Positions 47-37,150 of a stretch of 38,409 nt of DNA are shown piece by piece. Where the stretch lies: the IMG/VR virus record IMGVR_UViG_3300003885_000019, positions 1 through 38,409 of that record. One strand, written 5' to 3'. The position numbers and the translations under genes were made by a program. Every line of letters starts with the position of its first letter. Positions within the stretch are counted from its first letter, which is position 1. The notes beneath the pieces are model-generated. The model saw nothing but the letters and a program-made list of their open reading frames with translations. It was not told where the DNA came from and ran no database searches. Origin of the DNA: a virus.

Positions 47-553
47 ATGGCCGCGAGAAATCGTGTTAAAGAGTTAAGGTGGGTTACGGCGTCCGAGTTG
101 ATCCCCCATCCTAAGAATTGGCGAGAGCATCCAAAAGCCCAACGGGATGCTATGAAAGGTGTGCTGGAAGAGATCGGGTTTGCGGATGCCGTGATTGCCA
201 GAGAGACGCCGGAGGGGTTGCAGTTGATTGATGGGCATCTGCGACAGGAGATATCCGATAGCCAACAGATCCCAGTGTTGATCGTGGACGTGAATGAGAA
301 AGAAGCGGAGAAGATGTTGGTCACGCTGGATCCGCTGGCGATGATGGCGAACGCGAACCAAGATAATCTGCTTGGATTGTTGGAGTCGGCTCAATTTAAG
401 TCGCAGGCCGTTAACGACATGCTGGAGGCATTGGCAAACGGGGAGCGATTGTCAACGCCGGACTTTTCATCTGTTGGGGTAGAGGAACAATCACGACTTG
501 ATGAGAAGAAACCGGTTGAATGCCCTGCATGTGGACATCATTTCACAACCTGA
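47..553 (+). CDS. ParB N-terminal-like domain protein
   Basis: 168 aa. Residues about 10-105 look like a ParB/Srx-type fold: an opening 'ASELIPHPKNWREHP' followed by 'LIDGHLRQ', equivalent to the ParB box that binds CTP or acts as a nuclease in phage relatives. No C-terminal partition domain is present, so plasmid-style segregation is unlikely. The tail ends in a short zinc-knuckle-like CPACGHH segment (about residues 159-165). ATG 47 is preceded by AGGGGAGA, a good ribosome binding site. The Mom-like gene begins inside its last 53 bases, so the two are translationally coupled. Phage ParB-like proteins often sit beside DNA modification genes near the terminases. A role in modification or DNA nicking is inferred. 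Confidence 0.75.
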   Translation: MAARNRVKELRWVTASELIPHPKNWREHPKAQRDAMKGVLEEIGFADAVIARETPEGLQLIDGHLRQEISDSQQIPVLIVDVNEKEAEKMLVTLDPLAMMANANQDNLLGLLESAQFKSQAVNDMLEALANGERLSTPDFSSVGVEEQSRLDEKKPVECPACGHHFTT

Positions 554-1274
554 GTTGAGATTGGATTGGTGTTCTCATGCTGCGGCTAAATACGCTGTTG
601 AACATTGGCACTATTCGGGGCGGATGCCTAAAAGTAAATTGGCTAAGATTGGCGTCTGGGAGGCCGGACGGTTCGTTGGTGCGGTCATCTACGGAGTCGG
701 AGCAGGTAATAGTACCAATGGAACTAGATTTGGATTGGCAAAACGGTTCGAGATGGCGGAGTTAGTAAGGGTGGCTTTATCGAGGCGGGAAGCACCGACG
801 AGCCGTATTGTTGCGATATCAATCAGGATGATTCGGCGTGAGTTCGCAAAATTGCGATTATTAACATCATTTGCAGACGAGGAACAAGGCCATATCGGCA
901 CTATTTATCAAGCGTCTGGTTGGATGTACTTAGGTCGCAAAACAGAATCGAACGCATATTATATAGTTAATGGCCGGCGTCAGTTCCCCAGGACGTTGTA
1001 TGATCGGTATGGAGTCGGTGGACAATCAATTCCTTGGTTGAGAGAACACATCGACTGCGACGCAACGAGTTGCGTCGCAGTCCGTTACCATTATGTTTAC
1101 CCATTAGATGACGACATGAGTGGTCGTTTACACTCCTTGGCCCAACCCTATCCAAAGCGTCCGAAGGATTCCAGCGAACCGTTCGGCATCCTGCCGGAAG
1201 AGGGCGGGGCAGCACCGACCCGGACGCTCCAAAACTTATTCCCATTGAGGACGAGATTCCATGGCGGGAGTTAA
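501..1274 (+). CDS. Mom-like DNA modification protein (GNAT-related)
   Basis: About 257 aa. The stretch HYSGRMPKSKLAKIGVWE (about residues 36-55), followed by GRFVGAVIYGVGA, and the later RREFAKL and PYPKR segments match my memory of the phage Mu Mom family, which converts adenine to N6-carbamoylmethyladenine and protects phage DNA from host restriction. Placement just before the terminases suits a protein acting on DNA about to be packaged. ATG 501 overlaps the ParB-like gene by 53 bases; a TTG at 498 or GTG at 531 are other possible starts. The 3' end overlaps the small terminase by 14 bases. The family call is from pattern recognition, without an alignment; a generic acetyltransferase is the main alternative. 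Confidence 0.75.
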   Translation: MRRNRLNALHVDIISQPELRLDWCSHAAAKYAVEHWHYSGRMPKSKLAKIGVWEAGRFVGAVIYGVGAGNSTNGTRFGLAKRFEMAELVRVALSRREAPTSRIVAISIRMIRREFAKLRLLTSFADEEQGHIGTIYQASGWMYLGRKTESNAYYIVNGRRQFPRTLYDRYGVGGQSIPWLREHIDCDATSCVAVRYHYVYPLDDDMSGRLHSLAQPYPKRPKDSSEPFGILPEEGGAAPTRTLQNLFPLRTRFHGGS

Positions 1275-1752
1275 AGGCAGAAGCGGCGGTAAAGCTAAAC
1301 CAAGGGCAGCCAAGGAATTGTCGGGTACGTTCCGGTCAGACAGACACAACACGGACGAACCAGAGGTGGCGGCTTATGAGACCGCGCCTCGTTGCCCGGT
1401 TGGCTTGAAAGGTGAAGCAACAAAGGTGTGGCCTAGGATGGCTAAATTGTTGACGTTGATGGGTGTGTTGACTGCATCTGATTTGGACGCATTGGAAGCC
1501 TACTGTGTCGTCTATGCCCGATGGAAAGACGCTGAGGCTAATTTAGCTCAGTATGGTGTAATGATGACTAAAGAGGGGAGTTTCTTCCCATCTCCATATC
1601 TGCGGATCGCGGAGGATTGCTTGAAGCAACTCAGGGCGTGGATGAACGAGTTCGGGATCACGCCGTCGAGCCGGTCGCGGGTGAAAGTGGAGAAGAAGGA
1701 GCCTGTGACGCCAGGCGGGAGGGATTGGTTTGGCGACTCTAACCGCAACTAA
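1261..1752 (+). CDS. terS: Terminase small subunit, P27 family
   Basis: 163 aa, usual for the P27 family. It opens with a basic GRSGGKAKPRAAKEL segment, then an all-alpha central region containing LTASDLDALEAYCVVYARW and a C-terminal 'SPYLRIAEDCLKQLRAWMNEFG' region, both typical of this family. It recognises phage DNA and positions the large subunit for packaging. It overlaps the Mom-like gene at its start (14 bases) and the large terminase at its end (23 bases). ATG 1261 is the natural start. Confidence 0.88.
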   Translation: MAGVKGRSGGKAKPRAAKELSGTFRSDRHNTDEPEVAAYETAPRCPVGLKGEATKVWPRMAKLLTLMGVLTASDLDALEAYCVVYARWKDAEANLAQYGVMMTKEGSFFPSPYLRIAEDCLKQLRAWMNEFGITPSSRSRVKVEKKEPVTPGGRDWFGDSNRN

Positions 1753-3346
1753 ATACTGGTTTGACCAGGACGCGGCGGATCGAGCGGTGGAGTTCTTCTC
1801 TACGTTCCTGAAGCACACGAAAGGGGAGCACGCGGGGCAGTTGTTCAAGTTGCTGCCTTGGCAGGAGAATGAAGTTGTTCGCCCACTCTTTGGGTGGAAG
1901 AGGGCGGACGGAACCCGGAAGTACAGGCGGGCATATGTGGAAGTGCCGAGGAAGTGCGGGAAAAGCCACCTCGCCGCTGGCGTCGGATTGTTGCTGACCT
2001 TTGTGGACGGAGAACCGGGTGCCGAGATTTACTCAGCCGCAGCAGATAGGGAACAGGCTGCCATCGTGTTCGAGGCGGCGAAAAGTATGGTGGAAGAGTC
2101 GCCGGAGTTGATGGGCAGAGCACAGATATACCGGCGGTCCATCGTGGTTGGAGCAACTCGGTCGAGCTACAAGGTGTTGTCGGCGGACGTTAAGACCAAG
2201 CATGGGTTGAATGCTCACGGTATCATCTTTGACGAGTTGCATACCCAGCCCAACCGAGACTTGTGGGACGTGTTGACGACTTCCACTGGTTCCAGAAAAC
2301 AGCCGTTGACGTTTGCGATTACAACCGCTGGCTACGACAAAAACTCCATCTGTTGGGAGATTCACGACTACGCGATCAAGTGTTTAGAAGGGACGATTGT
2401 TGACGAAGAGTTCCTGCCGGTGATTTATTCTGCGCCAGACGGTGCGGACTGGTCGGACCCGGAAGTATGGGAACAGGCTAATCCGAGCTTGGGGGTGACG
2501 GTCTCACGGGAGTATTTGGAGGCTGAATGCAACCGGGCTAAAGAAACGCCGGGGTATGTGAATACGTTTCGGCGTCTCTTCTTGAATCAGTGGACTGAGT
2601 CGAGTTCCCGGTGGCTGGACTTGGAAGCTTGGACCGAAGGGGGGGAGCCATTCGACCCAGCAGAGTTGGAGGGGCAGGTCTGTTGGGGAGGGCTGGATCT
2701 GTCGACCACGACAGACCTGTCGGCGTTCGTGCTGGTGTTTCCACGAAAGATTACGAATCCAAGTGTAATGGAAGGGATCGGCGGCCTCGCTGGAAGCGAG
2801 CTGAATGATGGGTTTAACGTCGTGGCGAAGTTCTGGATGCCGGAGGAGAACATCGCGCTCCGAGTGCGACGGGATCGGGTCCCTTATGACGTTTGGGTCC
2901 GGGAGGGTTGGATTGAGGCGACGGAGGGCAACGTTATTGATTACCATGTCATTCGGGAGCGGATCAAGGAATTGAGTTCTTTGTACCGGATTCAGGACAT
3001 GGGATTTGACCCTTGGAACGCGACGGGTTTGGTCAACGACCTGATGGAGGATGGGGCCAACATGGTGGAGGTCCGGCAAGGGTACGCCAGTCTGTCCGGG
3101 CCGAGCAAGGAATTGGAGAAGTTGGTGGCGTCTCGGCGGTTGTGGCATGGTGGGAACCCGGTGTTGACGTGGTGTGCGGCGAACGTAGTGGTGCAACAAG
3201 ACCCGACAGGGAATCTGAAACCGTCGAAGGATAAGTCTACGGAGCGTATCGACGGGATAGTGGCGTTGGTGATGGCGCTGAGCCGGGCGATAGCCGGGGA
3301 AGATGGGGAGAGTGTCTACGAGAGCCGGGGGTTGTTGGTGCTATGA
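1730..3346 (+). CDS. terL: Terminase large subunit (ATPase and nuclease)
   Basis: 538 aa. The packaging motor. A Walker A-like PRKCGKSH lies at residues 73-80, Walker B GIIFDE at 164-169, and the ITTAGYD coupling segment near 197-203. The nuclease half begins with CWGGLDLSTTTDL, giving a candidate metal-binding Asp near 323, and MGFDPWNA follows later. It belongs to the Terminase_1 / YmfN-like group. The start is TTG 1730, which keeps the conserved N-terminal KYWFDQDAADRA segment and overlaps the small subunit. The stop codon overlaps the ATG of the next tiny gene (ATGA). Confidence 0.95.
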   Translation: MATLTATKYWFDQDAADRAVEFFSTFLKHTKGEHAGQLFKLLPWQENEVVRPLFGWKRADGTRKYRRAYVEVPRKCGKSHLAAGVGLLLTFVDGEPGAEIYSAAADREQAAIVFEAAKSMVEESPELMGRAQIYRRSIVVGATRSSYKVLSADVKTKHGLNAHGIIFDELHTQPNRDLWDVLTTSTGSRKQPLTFAITTAGYDKNSICWEIHDYAIKCLEGTIVDEEFLPVIYSAPDGADWSDPEVWEQANPSLGVTVSREYLEAECNRAKETPGYVNTFRRLFLNQWTESSSRWLDLEAWTEGGEPFDPAELEGQVCWGGLDLSTTTDLSAFVLVFPRKITNPSVMEGIGGLAGSELNDGFNVVAKFWMPEENIALRVRRDRVPYDVWVREGWIEATEGNVIDYHVIRERIKELSSLYRIQDMGFDPWNATGLVNDLMEDGANMVEVRQGYASLSGPSKELEKLVASRRLWHGGNPVLTWCAANVVVQQDPTGNLKPSKDKSTERIDGIVALVMALSRAIAGEDGESVYESRGLLVL

Positions 3347-4992: not shown

Positions 4993-6047
4993 AATACGAA
5001 CACGTAGTTAATCTGGTTTATGACCAGCCTTGGGCGATCCTGGCATCTAAATATGCAATAATCATGGACTTGATTGCCTTCCGGGCAGCGGGGAATACGT
5101 TGACTGAGGAAGAGATTCAGGCCCGTATTGGTGCTGTTGCTCCACGTCAGCAGAGCCGGAGTGGGGCCGTGGCGGTGTTGCCTTTGCACGGGGTTATTTC
5201 GCAGCGGATGAACATGATGTCTGCGATGTCGGGTGGGACATCCACGGAGATGTTCGGGAAGGAATTTACAGCTGCGGTGGCGGACCCGGCCATCTCTGGA
5301 ATCGTGCTGGATATCGACTCGCCGGGAGGGTCTGTCTTTGGCGTACAGGAAGTGGTGCAGACCATTATGGCTGCTCGTGGAACCAAGCCGGTCGTAGCTT
5401 TTGCGAACAGCATGGCGGCGTCGGCGGCATACTGGATAGCGTCGGCGGCAGATGAGATTGTGGTGACTCCTGGTGGGCAGGTGGGGTCTATCGGGGTGTT
5501 GACGGCGCACAGCGACTTATCGGCGGCGTTGGAACAGGCTGGGGAGAAGGTCACGCTGATTAGTGCCGGGAAGAAAAAGGTGGACGGCAACCCCATTGAG
5601 CCGTTGTCCGACGCCGCCAAGGCGGATCTGCAAAAGAGTGTGGATGCTTACTACGCATCGTTTGTCGGCGCAGTTGCCAGAGGACGCGGTGTTGCACTGG
5701 CGGAAGTTCGTAACGGGTTCGGTGAAGGCGGCATGGTCGGGGCAGCGGAAGCGTTGCGGTCAGGGATGGTGGACCGGGTAGGGACTCTAGAAGTGGCCAT
5801 AGGCCGGGCGGCTGCTGGATCCAGGAAGCCGGTTCAAGCAATCAATGGGACAGGGGTTGTTCTCGATTCCGACAATCTGATTATGAGTTCGAAAGAAATT
5901 GTTGGCACTACTTTTACTCAGATTGAAACTACCGATGGTGAGCTTGTCTATGCCGCTAATGTAGAGCCTTCGGTGGAACCGGAAGATGTAAACGACACAG
6001 ACCTTCGGGATCGGCGGTTGGCGTTGCAAGAGTTGACAGGTCATTAA
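4989..6047 (+). CDS. Capsid maturation protease, S49 (SppA/protease C-like)
   Basis: 352 aa. It cleaves scaffold or capsid N-termini during head maturation. The ClpP/crotonase-type core shows LDIDSPGGSVFG (about 107-118) and SMAASAAYW (141-149), in which Ser145 is the likely nucleophile. The ISAGKKKVDGNP segment (191-202) supplies the candidate catalytic Lys of the S49 Ser-Lys dyad. The last 60 residues are acidic and unrelated to the protease core; they may be a scaffold-like or processing tail. The start overlaps the portal stop (ATGA). The neighbouring portal and HK97 capsid genes support the role. Confidence 0.9.
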   Translation: MKYEHVVNLVYDQPWAILASKYAIIMDLIAFRAAGNTLTEEEIQARIGAVAPRQQSRSGAVAVLPLHGVISQRMNMMSAMSGGTSTEMFGKEFTAAVADPAISGIVLDIDSPGGSVFGVQEVVQTIMAARGTKPVVAFANSMAASAAYWIASAADEIVVTPGGQVGSIGVLTAHSDLSAALEQAGEKVTLISAGKKKVDGNPIEPLSDAAKADLQKSVDAYYASFVGAVARGRGVALAEVRNGFGEGGMVGAAEALRSGMVDRVGTLEVAIGRAAAGSRKPVQAINGTGVVLDSDNLIMSSKEIVGTTFTQIETTDGELVYAANVEPSVEPEDVNDTDLRDRRLALQELTGH

Positions 6048-6132
6048 AGGCCAGTAGTATGATTCCCAATACATAGGGTCCGTTGTGGAAGTTGCCCGTA
6101 GGTAGCGGAAACGAGGGATGCGCGGTCTAGTT

Positions 6133-6224
6133 TAGTTCCGTTGAACTATTGAAGCCGCTAGGCAAGTTAGCTAACAGTTAAAAGCTGGAAGCTAGTTGGC
6201 CCGGCGGCTTTTTTGCGTGCCGGG
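6133..6224 (+). ncRNA. Structured leader with terminator-like stem before the capsid gene
   Basis: The 200-base gap before the major capsid gene has no convincing gene. TAGTTC (6133-6138) pairs with GAACTA (6143-6148). AAGCCGC (6152-6158) pairs with GCGGCTT (6204-6210), followed by six T residues, enclosing a second helix (6161-6172 with 6190-6201, including G-U pairs) and a capping hairpin. A competing helix, CCCGGC (6200-6205) with GCCGGG (6219-6224), cannot form at the same time as the terminator stem. This is attenuator-like architecture, or an intrinsic terminator or processing site controlling capsid mRNA. I do not recognise an RNA family. Confidence 0.5.
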
Positions 6225-6247
6225 AATCCTCCACAAGGAGACTAGAA

Positions 6248-23736: not shown

Positions 23737-23774
23737 ACAACGTAGAAGAACGATTAGGTGCAAGCATAGAAAAA

Positions 23775-23804
23775 GCCCCGAGGGCTACCAACTCGGGGCC
23801 TTTC
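23775..23804. terminator. Bidirectional intrinsic terminator
   Basis: GCCCCGAG (23775-23782) pairs with CTCGGGGC (23792-23799), a perfect 8-bp GC-rich stem with a 9-base loop. An A-run precedes it and TTTCT follows it, so it can stop transcription from both sides. It lies exactly between the end of the rightward late genes and the end of the leftward regulator genes. Confidence 0.85.
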
Positions 23805-23836
23805 TATTTGGGGCTCTCACACAGCGCCAGGGTTGT

Positions 23837-24109
23837 CTATTTGGGATGGCTGTGGGCAATCTCCAAGGCCAGAGACTTCACCAAGTCGCGAAACCAAGGC
23901 TGATCCGGGTCGTGGTCTGCGTGTCGAATCGCTTGCTTGCCGACCATGTTGGCCGTCTCGGTGGCGTTCTGTAAAGCTTGTAGAGCCACCTGGTTCAAGT
24001 TACGGGCGTGCGCCAACGACAAGTCCTGGTACTCGTCATAGGTCCGCTTGATATTGGCCTTCCAAGCCTCATCCATGCCTACTTCAAACTCGCGCTCGTT
24101 ATCTGCCAT
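23837..24109 (-). CDS. Hypothetical leftward protein
   Basis: 90 aa. Mostly helical; 'LSLAHARNLNQVALQALQNA' and 'MVGKQAIRHADHDPDQPW' are notable. No family recognised. The ATG is preceded on its strand by GAGAGG. It is downstream of the helix-turn-helix gene in the same direction and probably in the same transcript, so it may share in control of the phage life cycle. Confidence 0.55.
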   Translation of the reverse strand: MADNEREFEVGMDEAWKANIKRTYDEYQDLSLAHARNLNQVALQALQNATETANMVGKQAIRHADHDPDQPWFRDLVKSLALEIAHSHPK

Positions 24110-24136
24110 GGCGTACCTCTCTCTCTGTGCTGCTGA

Positions 24137-24331
24137 TTAGTTCTTGGGGCGGCTCAAGATGTGCTCCAGCACCAGTCTAACAGTCTTGGCCCTCGGGATC
24201 GCGGTGCGGCCGTGACGCCAACGATAGATAGTATGGCCGGTCACGTCGAACACCACCCCCACCGCTCTATCAGTCATTGTCTGATGCGCCTCTTCCAGCA
24301 ATTCAATCAGCGACTTCTCTTTTATTGTCAT
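24137..24331 (-). CDS. Helix-turn-helix regulator (repressor-like)
   Basis: 64 aa. 'AVGVVFDVTGHTIYRWRHGRTAIPRA' (residues about 23-48) is a helix-turn-helix with a clear recognition helix; 'RLVLEHIL' follows, as in small Cro/CI-like proteins. No oligomerisation or cleavage domain is present. It reads away from the early operon and ends 27 bases before the next leftward gene. AAAGGA precedes the ATG. Two CCTAGG palindromes sit immediately upstream, so autoregulation is plausible. Confidence 0.7.
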   Translation of the reverse strand: MTIKEKSLIELLEEAHQTMTDRAVGVVFDVTGHTIYRWRHGRTAIPRAKTVRLVLEHILSRPKN

Positions 24332-24353
24332 ACATTCCTTTGAAGTTTACTGA

Positions 24354-24373
24354 CCCTAGGGCTCGCACCTAGG
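24354..24373. promoter_or_regulatory. Paired CCTAGG operator-like sites
   Basis: Two CCTAGG palindromes (24355-24360 and 24368-24373), 13 bp apart, each followed by G, lie about 25-40 bp upstream of the leftward regulator's start. A third copy lies at 24633-24638. Binding by the helix-turn-helix protein is inferred. Confidence 0.5.
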
Positions 24374-24502
24374 GATGGTAGCTTTACGACGTTGCCCGTA
24401 TGCCATCACCATGCTCCAAAAGGACAGGGTCTATCTCAGGGTCGTATCTACCTCGTCGCCATACTAGCGTCTATCTTCCGCCACCAGTAATCTCCAAGCC
24501 AA

Positions 24503-24531
24503 ATGGTACATCTAGCCACGGAATTAGTCAA
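24503..24531 (-). promoter_or_regulatory. Candidate leftward promoter
   Basis: Read on the - strand: TTGACT (complement of 24526-24531), 17 bases, then TACCAT (complement of 24503-24508). This gives 5/6 and 4/6 matches to the -35 and -10 consensus and would transcribe the two leftward genes with a long leader carrying the paired CCTAGG sites. A weak -10 makes this tentative. Confidence 0.35.
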
Positions 24532-24570
24532 CAAGAATAAGCAGCATGTTCAAAGAGGTAACGTGCTCTG

Positions 24571-24590
24571 GCCCAAAATAGCCCAAAATC
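24571..24590. repeat. Tandem 10-bp direct repeat
   Basis: GCCCAAAATA is followed at once by GCCCAAAATC (9 of 10 identical), within the regulator-early gene gap. The CCCAAAA core also occurs in the origin-like repeats inside the initiator gene. It could be a regulatory or replication protein site. Confidence 0.4.
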
Positions 24591-24632
24591 AAGGGTTTTC
24601 AGACAGATCCAAATAAATTGGCCTGATTCGTG

Positions 24633-24672
24633 CCTAGGGAAGTTTGCATGGAATAGGCACCATGACTATAGT
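24633..24672 (+). promoter_or_regulatory. Early rightward promoter with adjacent CCTAGG site
   Basis: TTGCAT (24644-24649), a 17-base spacer, and TATAGT (24667-24672) form a good sigma-70-like promoter just before the first early gene. CCTAGG (24633-24638) lies 5 bp upstream of the -35 box, a placement suited to repression or activation by the nearby regulator. Confidence 0.6.
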
Positions 24673-25902: not shown

Positions 25903-26256
25903 ATGGAAGGCCAATACATCGATATCAGCGGAATGGACCTAGAGGAACTAGCCAAGCACATCAGTAAAACAACTCTGGATATTCTGCCGGCAGACTTAGC
26001 AGCCCAGTTGTTTTATCTTGACGCCGCCCATAGTGCCCAAGTGTTGAAGGCGCAATGGCAAGAGCAGCGTCCAGCTCCAACCATCCGCGTCCGCATCAAC
26101 GTCTCCGACAGCGTGAAAGGAATCCGTACAAGCGATACGACCCTGGAGGTCTACGGGGACTTGCGGGATTACGAGGTGGATGACATCGTAGCCCTTCGGG
26201 AAGAACTAAGCACCAAGGTGGACGCGGTCTACCCGCCGCCACATGGAGATAAATAA
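25903..26256 (+). CDS. Hypothetical protein, early module
   Basis: 117 aa, preceded by GGAGG (before ATG 25903). An acidic helical N-terminal half ('LEELAKHISKTTLDILPADL') and a beta-rich C-terminal half ('TIRVRINVSDSVKGI'). No family recognised. Confidence 0.55.
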   Translation: MEGQYIDISGMDLEELAKHISKTTLDILPADLAAQLFYLDAAHSAQVLKAQWQEQRPAPTIRVRINVSDSVKGIRTSDTTLEVYGDLRDYEVDDIVALREELSTKVDAVYPPPHGDK

Positions 26257-26257
26257 A

Positions 26258-26509
26258 ATGGCTATCGAGAAGATTACCAAGGAAGAGTTCGATGGGTTGA
26301 AGCTAAGCAATACCCGACGTAGTCCGGAAACCAAAGCAGTGGAAGCTCTTGCGATGGGAGAGGGATTAAAAATCACATGCCGTTGGAGCCACAGTAAAAG
26401 CGAGCAATGCTCTGGAAGATCGATCATAAATCACGCAGCCAAACGTAAAGGACAATCAATCTCAGCCACTTGCCGAGACGGGTTCCTCTATGTCTTGCGG
26501 GTGGAGTGA
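26258..26509 (+). CDS. Hypothetical small basic protein
   Basis: 83 aa from ATG 26258, with GGAGA upstream; an in-frame ATG at 26243 would add five residues but lies inside the previous gene. Contains 'EEFDGLKLSNTRRSPETKAV' and two Cys separated widely. Resembles short phage DNA-associated proteins but no family is recognised. Confidence 0.55.
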   Translation: MAIEKITKEEFDGLKLSNTRRSPETKAVEALAMGEGLKITCRWSHSKSEQCSGRSIINHAAKRKGQSISATCRDGFLYVLRVE

Positions 26510-26682
26510 TGATTTGCACACGCTGCAAAAAAACCATCAGCTTCTCCCAATGGCACGCTGGGCTCTGTTCCATGTGGACCGTTGATCAAAACCCCGACCA
26601 CCATTTAACGCCAGAAGACATCCGCCAAGCCTACGACCGGCACCTGCTAGAAGCCGCATACGCAAGGAGCAACACCCCATGA
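26509..26682 (+). CDS. Small zinc-ribbon protein
   Basis: 57 aa, ATG overlapping the previous stop (TGATG). Opens MICTRCKKTI, with further Cys/His (C near 26; HH near 37-38) that may complete a metal site. ATGA overlaps the next gene. Function unknown. Confidence 0.5.
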   Translation: MICTRCKKTISFSQWHAGLCSMWTVDQNPDHHLTPEDIRQAYDRHLLEAAYARSNTP

Positions 26683-26972
26683 CCGTACACAACCACGACC
26701 CCGGCCCCTGCGACACCTGCATGAACGACGGTGAGGAACAGACCTACATTCGCTACGCCACCATCGCCGTCGAAGTTAGTACGAATTGGCTGACTGACAA
26801 CGGACAAGCGAACGCCAAAGATGGATGGGAAGAGATAAAAAGCAATCTGGCACAGGCGGTGGAACGCTTGCCAACATTCCATTACCACAACCCTCCTATG
26901 TGGACATGGATAGAATGGACTTCTGAACCAGAATTGAAGGATGCCATCGCCAAGGCCGAAGGCAAACCATGA
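26679..26972 (+). CDS. Hypothetical protein with CxxC
   Basis: 97 aa. N-terminal HNHDPGPCDTC offers a metal site; the rest is mixed ('IRYATIAVEVSTNWLTDNG', 'LAQAVERLPTFHYHNPPMW'). Overlaps both neighbours by 4 bases. Function unknown. Confidence 0.5.
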   Translation: MTVHNHDPGPCDTCMNDGEEQTYIRYATIAVEVSTNWLTDNGQANAKDGWEEIKSNLAQAVERLPTFHYHNPPMWTWIEWTSEPELKDAIAKAEGKP

Positions 26973-28237
26973 TTTACCCAGCCCCGCCCGGCATCAAGGC
27001 CAACCGGTATATGTGCGGCGAGTGTGGTGCTGGGCTGGCGATGCCGTGGATGGAAACGGCCAAAGATGCTCATGGTTACAATTTTCAAATCTATGCGCTC
27101 AAGTGCGTCAACAACTCCACTCACGAGACCTACGTAGAAAAGAACAATGGCAGAACCAAAACACTATCCGGCCCAGATGGGCTAAAGATTGAGGTAGATG
27201 TAATGACCCAGAGACCAACGACCGGCGCGGACATTGTCCTGATTGAAAGCGAGGCATCGGCCCTAGCTGTGGTGAAGCGGCAAAACTCGCTGGCGACATG
27301 GCCCGACTCCAAGGACATGAACGAATCCCAGATGGCGGCTCTTGCCCACGTTGCGTACCACTACCAGATGGACATCATCATGGGCGAGATTATGCCGTTC
27401 CAGGGGAAACCGTTCATCACCATCAAGGGACGGCGTCGGCATGACAAGCGGGAAGGGCACCGGATGGGCATTACGTTTCGGATGCCTCGGGAAGATGAGC
27501 TTCAATTCTGGATGACTGCTGGGGCAATGAAAGCCGGAGACCTGATCCAGATCGCAGTGGGCACTGAACCGGACGGCCTAGTAACCGAAGCGATGGGCCG
27601 CGTGCTAGCATCCGAGAAACCGGCTACAGCCAAGGGCCAGGAGTTTCTACCTATCGAGGTCCGCAAACTTGAGATGGCTCAGAAGCGTGCCGAGTCCCGG
27701 CTACGGGAGATGGTGTTCGGTGCCATCGGCAAGCCCCAAGGGTTGAATCTTGAGACGCCCATCCTAAGTGAGGGCGAGGGGGTTGGTATCATCGAGGGAA
27801 CCTACCGTGAGATCCCACAGGACCAACCAGAATCAGAGCCCATGCCGGACTTCGGCGACTGCCCGGAGCACGGCGTCGAATGGCGCGTCGAGGCTGACAA
27901 GTACACCGGAGCCCCAAGGGCGGCGCATCCTGTTGGTCAGAGTGGCCCGTGGTGCAACATCAGCAAGGTCTACGCCCCGTTGTTCATGTCAGCATGGGCG
28001 GCTAAATTCGGAGAGCCTAACAAAAAAGACGTGGACGCTTGGCTGAAGGAAAGGTACGACGGCAAGACGTGGAGCAAGTTGGCCCACCTGGAGTGCATCG
28101 AGGCGTTCGATACGATGCGGGTTGATGATGCCACCGGCGAGGTTGAGGCCCAGCCCGAGCCCCAGGAAGAGTCCATCCCGATGCCCGACTACGACGAGCA
28201 AGAGCCTGAGTTGGTCGGCGACGAGGCAGGGATTTAA
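26969..28237 (+). CDS. Possible RecT-like single-strand annealing protein
   Basis: 422 aa. A short N-terminal CGECG ribbon is followed by 'ESQMAALAHVAYHYQMDIIM' then 'GEIMPFQGKPFITIKGRRR', a pattern similar to RecT/Redbeta-type annealing proteins ('...LDPLLGEVY...GKP..TIDG'). The acidic tail (after about 285) has CPEHGVEW ... HPVGQSGPWC, a possible zinc finger, and a Glu/Pro-rich end. It is the largest early protein before the replication genes, where recombination mediators usually sit. I have no alignment, so the family is tentative. Alternative: uncharacterised phage protein. Confidence 0.5.
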   Translation: MIYPAPPGIKANRYMCGECGAGLAMPWMETAKDAHGYNFQIYALKCVNNSTHETYVEKNNGRTKTLSGPDGLKIEVDVMTQRPTTGADIVLIESEASALAVVKRQNSLATWPDSKDMNESQMAALAHVAYHYQMDIIMGEIMPFQGKPFITIKGRRRHDKREGHRMGITFRMPREDELQFWMTAGAMKAGDLIQIAVGTEPDGLVTEAMGRVLASEKPATAKGQEFLPIEVRKLEMAQKRAESRLREMVFGAIGKPQGLNLETPILSEGEGVGIIEGTYREIPQDQPESEPMPDFGDCPEHGVEWRVEADKYTGAPRAAHPVGQSGPWCNISKVYAPLFMSAWAAKFGEPNKKDVDAWLKERYDGKTWSKLAHLECIEAFDTMRVDDATGEVEAQPEPQEESIPMPDYDEQEPELVGDEAGI

Positions 28238-28570
28238 ATGACCACCATAATCGCAGATCTGCGCGGCAACAGCGACTTCGCTGGACGCCAGTGGGACCAG
28301 TACGTCAAGGCTGTCCGGCGGATTGGGGACACCAAGTCTTTGCAAGAAGCCAACGAGGGATTGGGGTACAACTTGGTTAAAACCATCCCCGGCCTGCTGC
28401 AATGGATCCAGGAACTTCAGGAGACGAACACCAAGTTGAGCAAAGAACTCTACCTGCTGAGGGCTCAAGGCCAGGAGCCGATGCAAGCAATAGTGACCAT
28501 GCCCGACCCAAAGCGGCCACTCGGGATACCAGCGGGGCACATCATCTTGGACATCGTCGGAGAAGAATAG
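28238..28570 (+). CDS. Hypothetical coiled-coil protein
   Basis: 110 aa, starting right after the preceding stop. 'TIPGLLQWIQELQETNTKLS' suggests a coiled coil; the C-terminal 'PLGIPAGHIILDIVGEE' may be a small beta segment. Function unknown. Confidence 0.5.
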   Translation: MTTIIADLRGNSDFAGRQWDQYVKAVRRIGDTKSLQEANEGLGYNLVKTIPGLLQWIQELQETNTKLSKELYLLRAQGQEPMQAIVTMPDPKRPLGIPAGHIILDIVGEE

Positions 28571-28578
28571 GCGGCCTG

Positions 28579-28743
28579 ATGCGAACAATCAAACTATCTG
28601 AAGCTGAATATGAAGTCCTCAAGGATGTGTTGAAGGATATCGAAACAGCTAACGGCGCAACCACGACATGGAGCAACAGCCATATATGGCATTTCCTCAA
28701 CCTTCAACACAAGATTCATAACGCATCAAAAGAAAGACGTTAG
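28579..28743 (+). CDS. Small hypothetical protein
   Basis: 54 aa from ATG 28579, after GGCGGCC. Contains 'LSEAEYEVLKDVLKDIETAN', a likely helix. It is the last gene before the structured intergenic region. Function unknown. Confidence 0.5.
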   Translation: MRTIKLSEAEYEVLKDVLKDIETANGATTTWSNSHIWHFLNLQHKIHNASKERR

Positions 28744-28751
28744 CAACCAAC

Positions 28752-28840
28752 GGCAGAGTTTAGCCTCTGCCTCGGCTCGGTGGACAGGGGACGGTGTGGA
28801 CGCGGCAGGCCAGGGGTCGGCGTCAGGTGCCACCGAGCCG
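28752..28840 (+). ncRNA. Highly structured intergenic RNA candidate
   Basis: GGCAGAG (28752-28758) pairs with CTCTGCC (28765-28771), a 7-bp stem. Immediately after, CGGCTCGGTGG (28773-28783) pairs perfectly over 11 bp with CCACCGAGCCG (28830-28840), enclosing GACGC (28799-28803) with GCGTC (28820-28824). No gene is visible here. GC-rich nested stems suggest a folded RNA or processing element. No known family recognised. Confidence 0.5.
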
Positions 28841-28854
28841 GGAGAGGGACTGAG

Positions 28855-28883
28855 TTGACAGCCTAGAACCCTGAAAGTAGAAT
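28855..28883 (+). promoter_or_regulatory. Near-consensus sigma-70 promoter
   Basis: TTGACA (28855-28860), a 17-base spacer, and TAGAAT (28878-28883): a perfect -35 and 5/6 -10 at optimal spacing. Transcription should start near 28890, just before the extended hairpin and upstream of the replication genes. Confidence 0.75.
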
Positions 28884-28890
28884 GCCCTTG

Positions 28891-28957
28891 AATCGCCGCC
28901 TTGCACCGGTCGGCTATTGTGCAAGATGGCCAATCGGTAAACAAGGCGGCTCTTTTT
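28891..28957 (+). ncRNA. Short promoter-to-terminator RNA (attenuator or sRNA)
   Basis: GCCGCCTTG (28895-28903) pairs with CAAGGCGGC (28942-28950), followed by TCTTTTT. Inside, ACCG (28905-28908) pairs with CGGT (28935-28938), and GGCTAT with ATGGCC. This is a ~65-base transcript ending in an intrinsic-terminator-like hairpin, directly behind a strong promoter. The AAGG in its 3' arm could be the ribosome binding site of the next gene, whose ATG is at 28958, so it may be an attenuator. Confidence 0.55.
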
Positions 28958-29173
28958 ATGCCTAACGCAGACAGTCCCTTCCACGGCATCATTGAAGTGC
29001 AAGAAGTCGGATACAAAAAGGTCAACGAACTCATGACGGAAGGCTATGAGATTCTGGCCATCCACCCGGGATCACGGCTAATCAAAAGCAATCCCGAAGA
29101 CACCACGTCGGTTACGTACGTGCGACGCAGGCCGGTCTATGTGATGGGCAAACGAGAGCCCGATGATGAGTAA
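28958..29173 (+). CDS. Hypothetical protein behind the attenuator-like hairpin
   Basis: 71 aa from ATG 28958, immediately after the T-run of the hairpin. 'EVQEVGYKKVNELMTEGYEI' and 'YVRRRPVYVMGKREPDDE' suggest a small alpha/beta protein. Its ribosome binding site would be buried in the stem, so expression may depend on unfolding. Overlaps the initiator gene. Function unknown. Confidence 0.5.
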   Translation: MPNADSPFHGIIEVQEVGYKKVNELMTEGYEILAIHPGSRLIKSNPEDTTSVTYVRRRPVYVMGKREPDDE

Positions 29174-29921
29174 TTTTGATAGATTATTTTTCGATGAGGC
29201 TCCGTTATTGGTCAGACCTGCCTTGGCCGTCGCGGTCGGGCTGGAAGAATCAATCATTCTGCAACAACTACATTATTGGCTGACTGACGAGCAGAGTGGG
29301 CGTGAATACGAAGGGGACAAGTGGATTTACAACACCTACAAAATGTGGCATAGCAACTTCCCTTTCCTAAGCACAAAAACTATTGGGAAGATATTTCGTA
29401 AACTGGAGGCGCAAGGGTTGATTGTTTCGGGGAACTTCAATAATTCATCCTACGACCGGACGAAATGGTATCGGTTGGACTATCAGGCGATTGAAGGATT
29501 ATCGATAGTACCCAAAAGGGACAATGGAGAGTCCCAAATAGGGACTATCGATAATGCCCAAAAGGGACATTGTTCATTAGCAAAGACTACTACAGAGATT
29601 GCTTCAAAGATTACTTTAGAAAAGCCGCGACCGGCTAAACCCAAACGAATTCCATATTCTGAGGAACTAAAATCCGAACTGCTGGAAGTCTACAAAGACT
29701 TGCCGGACGCGTCCTTCCAGATCGACCTTGCAATGGCACATGATTCCGCTAAAAAATATTCGGACATGAACCTCTTTTTAAGAAATTGGCTCAACCGGGC
29801 ACGCAAGAACAACGGAGGCAACAATGGAAGACCTGGGAACCATTCTCCGGCGAGTGGTGGCGAAGGAGCTATCGCCAAGGCAGCTAGAGAGCAGGCAGAA
29901 CGCAACGACCAACCAAGTTGA
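29163..29921 (+). CDS. Replication initiator (winged-helix, O/DnaD-like)
   Basis: 252 aa. 'VGLEESIILQQLHYWLTDEQ' and 'WIYNTYKMWHSNFPFLSTKT' then 'KIFRKLEAQGLIVSGNFN' match the winged-helix N-terminal domain of phage replication initiators. The C-terminal half resembles a DnaD-type or loader-binding tail. Origin-like repeats lie within the middle of the gene (about 29498-29569), as in lambda O. Initial MM gives ATG 29163 or 29166. A helicase loader follows, overlapping by 98 bases. Confidence 0.78.
   Translation: MMSNFDRLFFDEAPLLVRPALAVAVGLEESIILQQLHYWLTDEQSGREYEGDKWIYNTYKMWHSNFPFLSTKTIGKIFRKLEAQGLIVSGNFNNSSYDRTKWYRLDYQAIEGLSIVPKRDNGESQIGTIDNAQKGHCSLAKTTTEIASKITLEKPRPAKPKRIPYSEELKSELLEVYKDLPDASFQIDLAMAHDSAKKYSDMNLFLRNWLNRARKNNGGNNGRPGNHSPASGGEGAIAKAAREQAERNDQPS
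29498..29569. repeat. Origin-like repeats inside the initiator gene
   Basis: Two copies of CCCAAAAGGGACA (29511-29523 and 29557-29569) surround a related palindrome GTCCCAAATAGGGAC (29531-29545). ATTATCGATAGT (29498-29509) is repeated inverted as ACTATCGATAAT (29544-29555). Such iterons inside the initiator gene suggest the replication origin. Confidence 0.62.
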
Positions 29922-30612
29922 ACGATGCCGCCGTTGCAAGGGCAGAGGATTTCTGTCTACCGGCCTGATTGCAAGTCCAACGGAGTCCGGGCAATCTGGT
30001 TATGTGTCCAATGCGTCCGAACATCCCTGCCCAGAGTGCAACCCTCGGGCTCCTCTGGGGCAAGGCAAGACATTTGATGATTTTGAAGTGATCCCTGGGA
30101 CGGAGCAAATGGTTGCTGTAGCCCAGGACTTTGCAGACTCGTTGGACTCAGTGGACCTGATTCCTGGAATGACCATCGTTGGGCAGAACGGCAACGGCAA
30201 GAGTCACATCGTGGAAGCTGTAGCGAACAGGGCCATCCAGCACGGAAAGTCACCGGCCTATGTCTTCATCCCAGATTTCCTAGACCAGCTTCGATCCAGC
30301 TTCGATCCAGAAAACGACTTGCAATATGCCCGGTTATGGGAATGGTGGTCCGGCACGGATCTGTTGATTCTAGACGACTTGAAACACGACGGCCGGCCAA
30401 CACCTTGGGCGATAGAGCAGATCGAAAGGATTGTGGACTTGAGATACCGAAAACGCCTGCCTTACATCGTGACCACAAATGGGACGTTGGCATCCATTGA
30501 AGCAGTTTGGCATCGCAGGTTGGCCGACCGGCTCTTTGATGAGCACAGTGGGACAGTCCAGGTGGTTTATAACACGGCGCCCAGCTATCGCACTCGAAAG
30601 TCTTGGAAATGA
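29824..30612 (+). CDS. DnaC-like AAA+ helicase loader with zinc ribbon
   Basis: 262 aa. An N-terminal zinc ribbon (C35, C38, C69, C72: CRRCKG ... CPECN) precedes an AAA+ core: Walker A GQNGNGKS (120-127), Walker B LLILDD (180-185), and the VTTNG sensor (216-220). It would load the host replicative helicase at the phage origin with the initiator. ATG 29824 is supported by GGAGG at normal spacing, despite a long overlap with the initiator gene. IstB-like ATPases are the alternative. Confidence 0.85.
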   Translation: MEDLGTILRRVVAKELSPRQLESRQNATTNQVERCRRCKGRGFLSTGLIASPTESGQSGYVSNASEHPCPECNPRAPLGQGKTFDDFEVIPGTEQMVAVAQDFADSLDSVDLIPGMTIVGQNGNGKSHIVEAVANRAIQHGKSPAYVFIPDFLDQLRSSFDPENDLQYARLWEWWSGTDLLILDDLKHDGRPTPWAIEQIERIVDLRYRKRLPYIVTTNGTLASIEAVWHRRLADRLFDEHSGTVQVVYNTAPSYRTRKSWK

Positions 30613-30615
30613 CTA

Positions 30616-30822
30616 ATGACAGGGCTTCAAAGGATACGGGAAGAGATGATCACTGAGTTATATGACTTCCAATCAGCCATTGTTGATTGGGCCGAACGGA
30701 AGAAACGGGTTGCAGTATTTGCTGATTGCGGCCTGGGTAAGACTCTCAGAGCCAGGACTCCGGACGCTTTGGCTAAGATATTGGAACAGCATCGAAAAGA
30801 GGATTGTAGCGGCCAGCTATGA
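30616..30822 (+). pseudogene. Truncated SNF2-type helicase remnant
   Basis: 68 aa. 'ELYDFQSAIVDWAERKKRVA' followed by FADCGLGKT (Q-motif-like region plus Walker A) matches the very beginning of SNF2-like phage helicases, usually 450+ aa. After Walker A the sequence changes to an unrelated helical tail (PDALAKILEQHRKED) and stops. No other helicase motifs follow. An internal deletion is the simplest explanation. It could still be expressed as a small nucleotide-binding protein. Confidence 0.5.
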
Positions 30823-30911
30823 GCTTTAAACAGGTTGGGAATGCTTTCACTCGGGCCAAGCAGGTTGACACGCTAGGGGCAGAAGACTACCAGCAGAAAA
30901 AGGGGAGTTGA
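30819..30911 (+). CDS. Tiny hypothetical peptide
   Basis: 30 aa, overlapping the upstream stop (ATGA) and the next start (TGATG). Contains 'VGNAFTRAKQVDTLGAEDYQ'. Bracketing overlaps support it weakly; it might be residue of the deleted helicase region. Function unknown. Confidence 0.35.
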   Translation: MSFKQVGNAFTRAKQVDTLGAEDYQQKKGS

Positions 30912-31138
30912 TGATTCAAGCTAGTGAGATAGTCGCCCAATGCCAAAAGCTGGAAGCGTTGCTAGGCCCAGTGGATATCCACGATGTCGAGACATGGACG
31001 ATGGCGGACTGTGAGGAAATCAAGGACGCTCTGTATAACCTGGGCATCAAGGCCAGCATCGTGTTCGTGTTTTGCATGACCGACGAAGAGATGGCCGCTG
31101 CCGAACGGGAGGGGATGGATCTCAATGACCAGTCTTAA
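30911..31138 (+). CDS. Hypothetical acidic protein
   Basis: 75 aa from ATG 30911, with AAGGGGAG upstream. 'IVAQCQKLEALLGPVDIHDV' and 'CEEIKDALYNLGIKASIVFV' indicate a small alpha/beta fold. It overlaps the VRR-NUC gene by 14 bases. Function unknown. Confidence 0.55.
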   Translation: MIQASEIVAQCQKLEALLGPVDIHDVETWTMADCEEIKDALYNLGIKASIVFVFCMTDEEMAAAEREGMDLNDQS

Positions 31139-31547
31139 CAACCAGATCAGCGAGAAGGAACTCGGACAGTTTCTCCATGAACTCGGGCAGGTCTGGTCTT
31201 GGTCTATGTATCATCAGGTTGACACGGGAGCTTGCCCCAACTGCCACCGGCCTAGCTATTCCAAGCGAGTCGGGCCTGGCTTCCCTGATTGGGTGATGGC
31301 ACACGAGAACGGACGGCTTCTTGCGATCGAACTTAAAAGTCAAAAAGGCTCGATACGGCCAGAGCAGGTTGCATGGCTCCAAACACTAGCGAGAGGCCCA
31401 GCCGAGGTCTATTTGTTCCGGCCTTCAGACATGGATACAATAACCCGCATCCTTGAGCCGTCCTACACAGCGCCTACAGGGGAGACACTGGTGCTTCCGG
31501 CCAAGTACAGGACCACTGAGACGGATGCCCCGGTTGACACGCCTTAA
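31125..31547 (+). CDS. VRR-NUC domain nuclease
   Basis: 140 aa. A stand-alone VRR-NUC (PD-D/ExK superfamily). 'SEKELGQFLHELGQVWSWSM' opens the domain; GFPD (D55), AIELK (E69, K71) and 'RPEQVAWL' (Q81) are the metal-binding and catalytic set, and 'YLFRPSDMDTITRIL' closes it. CPNC (37-40) adds a possible zinc loop. Acts on structured DNA in replication or recombination; common beside phage replication genes. Near-standard length. Confidence 0.88.
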   Translation: MTSLNNQISEKELGQFLHELGQVWSWSMYHQVDTGACPNCHRPSYSKRVGPGFPDWVMAHENGRLLAIELKSQKGSIRPEQVAWLQTLARGPAEVYLFRPSDMDTITRILEPSYTAPTGETLVLPAKYRTTETDAPVDTP

Positions 31548-31587
31548 ACGGCGTTAGGTGACGATTCTATCCAGCAGAGGTGCAACC

Positions 31588-32004
31588 ATGACCGAATCTA
31601 ACGTGCCAGACGAGGGATACCCCGTGGATGAAACCATTGGCGAAGTTGACTGGCTCCAAGGCTACAACGGGGATGGGAGTGAGGTTACTCGATATACCTA
31701 CGTTGCCGCCAAAGCTATTCGGCGCATCCGGGAGACTGAGGTGGCAAAGTTGGAGCAGCAAGCATACGTATCTAAAACTTGGGCTGATGAAACTATGCGC
31801 CGGATGATGTTGTTCGAGCAGCAACGTGACGCTGTCCGAGCGCAGTTGGCGGAATTGGTGGAAGCTGGAGGAAAATTACAGGTTGCACTCAAACAATACG
31901 AGATGGATGTAGATGAGGCCCCTCCGTTCAGACATAAGCAGATGATGGGCAATTGGGATTTCGCCATCGCCAAGATCAATCAATCTGAGGAGGAGCAACC
32001 ATGA
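31588..32004 (+). CDS. Hypothetical coiled-coil protein
   Basis: 138 aa from ATG 31588, after AGAGG. A helical centre, 'MMLFEQQRDAVRAQLAELVE', is flanked by acidic segments. Its first 31 bases around the start (31577-31607) are repeated almost exactly at 34468-34498 before another coiled-coil gene. Function unknown. An upstream TTG/GTG-like extension is possible but has no good site. Confidence 0.55.
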   Translation: MTESNVPDEGYPVDETIGEVDWLQGYNGDGSEVTRYTYVAAKAIRRIRETEVAKLEQQAYVSKTWADETMRRMMLFEQQRDAVRAQLAELVEAGGKLQVALKQYEMDVDEAPPFRHKQMMGNWDFAIAKINQSEEEQP

Positions 32005-36550: not shown

Positions 36551-37150
36551 ATGAAAAGGTTAATCCTAGGTATCACATTCTTAGTCTTTGGAATCGGTCT
36601 CATGTGGACAGGCACACCATCTGCGTCCGTACTAGCGGGGCCGCAACCACCTGGGGACCTATTCCTAAGCCCAAATCAAGCCGTCTATCACGTTGGTGAT
36701 GAAGTGCTGTGGGGAAGCATATGCCACACAGGATGGAGTTGCACGAAGACCGTTACCTCGGGTCTCAATCCAAGGGCTCCCTGGCTGATCGATACAAGCA
36801 CACCCGGCGAGTATCAATACATTCTCATTGGAATACGTAATGCAGACGGCGCAGTGCAAACTACCACTCGAGACTTCACTGTGGAGATCAACCACCTCTG
36901 CGGGGACGTACACCCTAACGGACAGGGCAACGGCGTCGTTAACGTCTTGGATGCCCTACGGGTCTTGAAGATCGCAAACGGTCTAATCATACCGAATGAC
37001 CTAGAGCGGGTCATCGGGGACGTGCATCCAGAGAACGCCAATGGTCCTAACGGAGACGGCGATATTGACATACTGGACGCGCTAAGAGTGCTGAAGGCAG
37101 CGGTCGGGCTCATTGATCTACCTCCGTGGCCCGAAGGGTGTGGGGGGTAG
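36551..37150 (+). CDS. Secreted dockerin-type protein
   Basis: 199 aa. A signal peptide-like start (KRLILGITFLVFGIGLMW then ...SASVLAG) predicts export. Residues about 40-115 form a beta domain with two Cys. The C-terminal half has two dockerin/EF-hand-like repeats: GDVHPNGQGNGVVNVLDALR and, after a spacer, 'NGDGDIDILDALRVLKAAVG', each with Asp/Asn calcium ligands. Such repeats dock onto cohesins or bind calcium on the cell surface. GGAGA precedes ATG 36551. Probably a host-derived moron that alters the infected cell's surface. Confidence 0.78.
   Translation: MKRLILGITFLVFGIGLMWTGTPSASVLAGPQPPGDLFLSPNQAVYHVGDEVLWGSICHTGWSCTKTVTSGLNPRAPWLIDTSTPGEYQYILIGIRNADGAVQTTTRDFTVEINHLCGDVHPNGQGNGVVNVLDALRVLKIANGLIIPNDLERVIGDVHPENANGPNGDGDIDILDALRVLKAAVGLIDLPPWPEGCGG

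Follow-up and report, generated by a model that had tools for sequence, protein, structure and literature searches.

A promoter match followed closely by a terminator-like hairpin in the leader of the replication genes of an uncultivated phage

The stretch at positions 28744-28957 holds a real, non-random site in which a strong promoter match is closely followed by a long hairpin and a T-run, just before the replication genes. The window, meaning the whole stretch of DNA that was analyzed, comprises 38,409 nt (IMG/VR record IMGVR_UViG_3300003885_000019) and belongs to an unclassified, uncultivated phage. The promoter match, hairpin, and T-run, together with their positions and rarity, were obtained directly by computation. 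The reading we favor, to which we give roughly an even chance, is that an intrinsic terminator, leaky or conditional in its action, lies close behind the promoter in the leader of a replication operon organized as in lambdoid phages. The coordinates of the features are summarized in Table 1.

Table 1. Features of the replication leader and its surroundings (positions in the window).
Feature	Position	Strand	Remarks
Small HTH-like gene	24140-24331	-	Weak Pfam matches, E ~0.02
Last small ORF of the upstream early gene block	28579-28743	+	54 aa, ATG start; left edge of the gene-free stretch
Hairpin 1, GGCAGAG-TTTAGC-CTCTGCC, 7 bp	28752-28771	+	z -3.9; 4/500 shuffles
Hairpin 2, outer stem of 11 perfect bp and weak inner helices	28773-28840	+	Fold z -2.3 to -3.1
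Sigma-70-type promoter match, TTGACA-17-TAGAAT, 11/12	28855-28883	+	Predicted start ~28890
Hairpin 3, 22 pairs in three helices (9+6+7)	28895-28950	+	-36.6 kcal/mol; basal stem GCCGCCTTG/CAAGGCGGC
AAGGCGG, Shine-Dalgarno-like (6/7)	28943-28949	+	8 nt before ATG 28958, in the 3' arm of hairpin 3
T-run TCTTTTT, directly after hairpin 3	28951-28957	+	Predicted transcript end
First ORF past the leader	28958-29173	+	71 aa; frame open back to TTG 28901
DnaD/O-like replication initiator	29163-29921	+	phrog_6493, E 8.5e-41
DnaC-like helicase loader	29824-30612	+	-

The 214 bases between the end of the upstream short ORF (coding score 0.08-0.10) and the ATG at 28958 were described earlier as being without a gene, and coding scores were indeed poor there, except in a short frame that continues into the 28958 ORF. 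A 102-aa minus-strand ORF over the region was rejected because of its poor coding score. The RNA of this stretch folds into three separate hairpins. The 11-bp perfect stem with inner helices that had been noted previously is present as hairpin 2, the outer stem of which pairs CGGCTCGGTGG (28773-28783) with CCACCGAGCCG (28830-28840) in 11 perfect pairs around a loop of 46 nt. Perfect 11-bp stems with a loop of up to 60 were found at five loci in the window, Markov copies averaged 0.61, and at least one such stem was present in 34 of 100 copies. Taken alone, the 11-bp stem of hairpin 2 is not beyond chance, and hairpins 1 and 2 exceed chance only modestly. Since hairpin 2 lies upstream of the promoter, it is absent from the short transcript. 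A 29-nt repeat between 8383 and 28771 (83%) was also rejected; it holds a 15-nt exact match, which we estimate to be at approximately chance level in 38 kb.

Hairpin 3 differs from shuffled sequence to a much greater extent. Folded alone, it gave a z of -6.5, and none of 500 shuffles was as stable. The 100-nt piece at 28881 ranked first among 657 pieces by fold z (-6.1) and was the most extreme of the window. The hairpin followed by TCTTTTT in the preliminary description is the strongest combination of hairpin and T-run in the window on either strand, and its GC-rich stem leads directly into the U-run, as is characteristic of intrinsic terminators. When the growing transcript was folded, a competing hairpin between 28895-28906 and 28919-28930 preceded hairpin 3. 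This fold, of GCCGCCUUGCAC with GUGCAAGAUGGC, has an energy of -15.4 to -15.7 kcal/mol. It is no evidence of a switch because equally good competitors arose in 18% of shuffles in which the 5' arm was kept, and a competing antiterminator fold is not claimed.

The promoter match is located between hairpins 2 and 3, with TTGACA at 28855-28860, a 17-bp spacer, and TAGAAT at 28878-28883, as previously proposed. It is the sole site of at least 11/12 in the window with both strands scanned, and none occurred in 30 Markov copies (one strand); these scores refer to the E. coli consensus, from which that of the host may differ. A start approximately 7 nt past the -10 box falls at about 28890, and the terminated RNA would therefore be ~66 nt. 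The short RNA of ~65 bases suggested earlier, ending before the replication genes, thus agrees with the present prediction and is supported by sequence statistics. Hairpin 3 would start at approximately +6 of this transcript and close ~56 of its 66 nt, leaving free a 5' end of ~5 nt and a 6-nt loop. A scan of 26000-32000 for plus-strand promoter matches of at least 9/12 revealed no other, and none between hairpin 3 and 32000. Since no promoter match separates hairpin 3 from the DnaD-like and DnaC-like genes, transcription of these genes, whether begun at the local promoter or in the early block, should pass over hairpin 3.

We propose a mechanism in which promoter activity, termination, read-through, and any regulation are all predicted from the sequence. 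The sigma-70-type promoter would start a transcript near 28890, and RNA polymerase would almost at once transcribe the 22 pairs of hairpin 3 and the T-run, which would act as an intrinsic terminator. Much of the transcription, both local and from the upstream early genes, would then end at about 28957. The 28958 ORF and the DnaD- and DnaC-like genes would need read-through, supplied by leakiness or by a stage-specific antitermination event. On read-through, hairpin 3 would cover AAGGCGG and could reduce translation of the 28958 ORF. As AAGGCGG lies in its 3' arm, the same hairpin could both stop transcription and mask a ribosome site; Shine-Dalgarno matches of at least 6/7 occur at 2.5% of random positions. 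A database match was sought for the product of the 28958-29173 ORF and none was found. The longer frame, which runs from TTG 28901 through hairpin 3, has a coding-like codon score, yet 4% of wrong frames matched this score, and a search for a clear start signal for it found none.

One point against a regulated gate is that an unregulated terminator, read through in part, would give the same picture. According to this alternative, hairpin 3 ends early transcripts and most local transcripts without regulation, and the replication genes depend on a fixed level of read-through. Hairpin 3 and its T-run suffice for this explanation, the competing fold is not significant, and no antitermination protein was recognized when 30 proteins were scanned with PHROGs. 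However, it leaves unexplained why the local strong promoter, the sole one in this part, is placed upstream and not downstream of the terminator, and we consider the plain terminator somewhat unlikely. Another possibility is that hairpin 3, ~5 nt from the 5' end of the RNA, serves as a translational gate or as a 5' stabilizer of the mRNA, with the T-run as a spacer. The placement of AAGGCGG before the ATG and the start of the hairpin at approximately +6 are consistent with this role. However, a GC-rich stem base adjoining TCTTTTT is the signature of an intrinsic terminator, and the 28958 ORF, which has no known homologue, may start elsewhere; a translational role is improbable.

The preliminary description left a choice between a small RNA, an attenuator, and an antitermination signal. 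An attenuator or conditional terminator, with predicted regulation, fits best, and the small RNA is disfavored. A trans-acting regulatory RNA of ~66 nt, from promoter to T-run, would have its own promoter and terminator to define a transcription unit, and lambda OOP RNA offers a known case of a short RNA close to replication genes. However, OOP is antisense, whereas the predicted phage RNA is sense, and Rfam covariance models gave no match to the site at the gathering threshold (best sub-threshold E ~7). Moreover, an accessible region for target pairing was not found. Since nearly all of the predicted RNA is closed in hairpin 3, the usual antisense-type small RNA is disfavored, and we regard this role as highly improbable. 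Hairpins 1 and 2 may also be read as an antitermination RNA of the put type, which would pass polymerase from upstream over hairpin 3, while local polymerase, lacking them, would stop. They form two stem-loops, one or two unpaired nt apart, just before the terminator, and the put RNA of HK022 likewise consists of two stem-loops of ~70 nt that need no dedicated protein (PMC9378689). However, the two hairpins exceed chance only to a modest degree, span ~89 nt, and are ~4 kb away from the presumed early promoter, and the chance that they act in this manner appears very slim.

A leaky or conditional terminator in the leader is supported by the wider gene layout, which is lambda-like. A minus-strand HTH-like gene is followed by divergent promoter matches, a rightward early block, the leader with its terminator, and the initiator and loader genes. 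The divergent matches (24503-24531 on the minus strand and 24643-24672 on the plus strand) are weak, at 9/12, and are approximately as numerous as expected by chance. A further small leftward ORF (23840-24109) and a leftward terminator-like hairpin (23786-23774) were observed nearby, and 23774-24672 is a possible immunity-like regulatory region. Within the DnaD/O-like initiator gene, three imperfect repeats with 23-bp spacing and inverted symmetry (ATTATCGATAGT...) occupy 29496-29572 and resemble an origin of the lambda type, in which iterons are located within the initiator gene. At 58 loci from distant phages, strong terminators upstream of DnaD-type initiator genes numbered 0.28 per kb, compared with 0.19. 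A general terminator at this position was rejected because enrichment was not clear, which argues that the promoter-terminator arrangement is not general to the DnaD replication type and counts against the favored reading.

Two further observations concern the right end of the window. A secreted-looking protein is encoded at 36551-37150 and has a weak match to dockerin type I (E 0.005, below the Pfam cut-off). The HNH gene at 37943-38248 matches genes located just upstream of terminase genes in ~30 related contigs, and the terminase-gene end of the window is at 47-3346. These matches suggest that the window represents a nearly complete genome, opened between HNH and terminase.

Searches by protein, alignment, DNA pattern, and locus comparison yielded no relative that has the site. 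Scans with the initiator, the DnaC-like protein, and the protein of 26969-28237 revealed no relative of the site; such single-sequence scans need exact 8-residue matches and have low sensitivity. Two alignments of distant homologues recovered distant replication genes only, and a gapped pattern of hairpin 3 with its T-run had no match. When the leader and neighboring ORFs were compared with 250 loci at the DNA and protein levels, none was found, and a search of 398 genomes from the Sporotomaculum phylum gave distant initiator matches only. A terminase and a capsid gene that are distantly related to those of the phage are present in Sporotomaculum. By terminase, the closest relatives (68-77% identity) are represented by short contigs that lack the replication region, and one locus (L011) with a DnaC-like gene of ~37% identity has a different initiator.

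A second leader, at 6071-6225 before the capsid gene, resembles the replication leader in layout. Both terminator-like sites lie in intergenic leaders behind a TTGACA promoter match, which for the capsid leader is at 6033 (10/12). Its hairpin is the second-strongest terminator-like site on the plus strand of the window, and each leader has a structured RNA and a strong terminator with GGCGGCT and a T-run, then a gene. The capsid leader is conserved in three relatives found via terminase (L002, L003, and L006), with TTGACA upstream and the same fold; the loci are 6033-6247 in the window, 5313-5455 in L003, 5821-5962 in L002, and 4669-4813 in L006. Its stems covary: in seven predicted pairs, both partners are changed in one or more of the sequences, of which there are only four. 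Two mutually exclusive folds are predicted: a terminator pairing AAGCCGC..AGGC with GCCCGGCGGCTT, and an alternative of two helices, GCGCGG/GCCGC and GCCCGGC/GCCGGGC, across the U-run. Since these segments are nearly invariant in sequence, their conservation indicates constraint and not covariation. No Rfam match of the capsid leader was obtained at the gathering threshold. A pattern scan of viral contigs gave mostly chance matches, and the leader with its T-run was shared only by L002, L003, and L006.

The preliminary description had compared the two leaders because both end in GGCGGCT followed by T. This is literally true (6204-6210 and 28945-28951), and the likeness concerns layout, without evident homology. 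When the window, L002, L003, and L006 were used to build a covariance model for the capsid leader, the model gave 143.5 bits at 6071-6225; at 28945-28962, with filters off, the score was approximately -0.7 bits. Because the model matches the capsid site only, the two leaders share layout and not descent, as far as can be judged from sequence. The capsid leader also differs in sequence and fold, in its conserved mutually exclusive folds, and in having its own separate Shine-Dalgarno sequence. It is a better lead than the replication leader. We speculate that both operons may be gated alike, by a host-type promoter, a terminator leader, and an antitermination signal, with the capsid leader as a new class of switching RNA; we consider this proposal unlikely at present. 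If the replication gate is real, it would be a small regulatory unit, and its pairing with the conserved capsid leader may provide a route to a factor that opens both.

In lambda, early and late genes alike are timed by terminators. Should the replication gate prove real, a phage that is uncultivated and has no close described relative would use a terminator to time its replication. The late leader of lambda, pR'-tR' (6S RNA), consists of a strong promoter, soon followed by an intrinsic terminator and then the operon; it depends on Q and yields an RNA of ~194 nt by default. The phage leader likewise has a promoter and, closely behind it, a terminator before an operon. However, lambda pR'-tR' precedes the late operon and gives ~194 nt, whereas the phage leader precedes the replication operon and would give ~66 nt, and lambda has Q, whereas no Q-like protein was recognized among the 30 phage proteins scanned with PHROGs. 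The likeness to HK022 put lies in hairpins 1 and 2, two neighboring stem-loops upstream of the terminator. HK022 putL and putR lie at and ~270 nt from their promoters (PMC9378689). In contrast, the phage pair is longer (~89 nt), does not adjoin the presumed early promoter, and is only weakly significant. With leaders that carry intrinsic terminators or attenuators, the phage site shares a GC-rich stem and U-run in the leader, before the first gene, but its stem is unusually long (22 pairs), and no competing antiterminator fold of significance was found. Phage leaders in which a promoter is followed by a terminator are ordinary elements, and the present site is a new example of this known kind.
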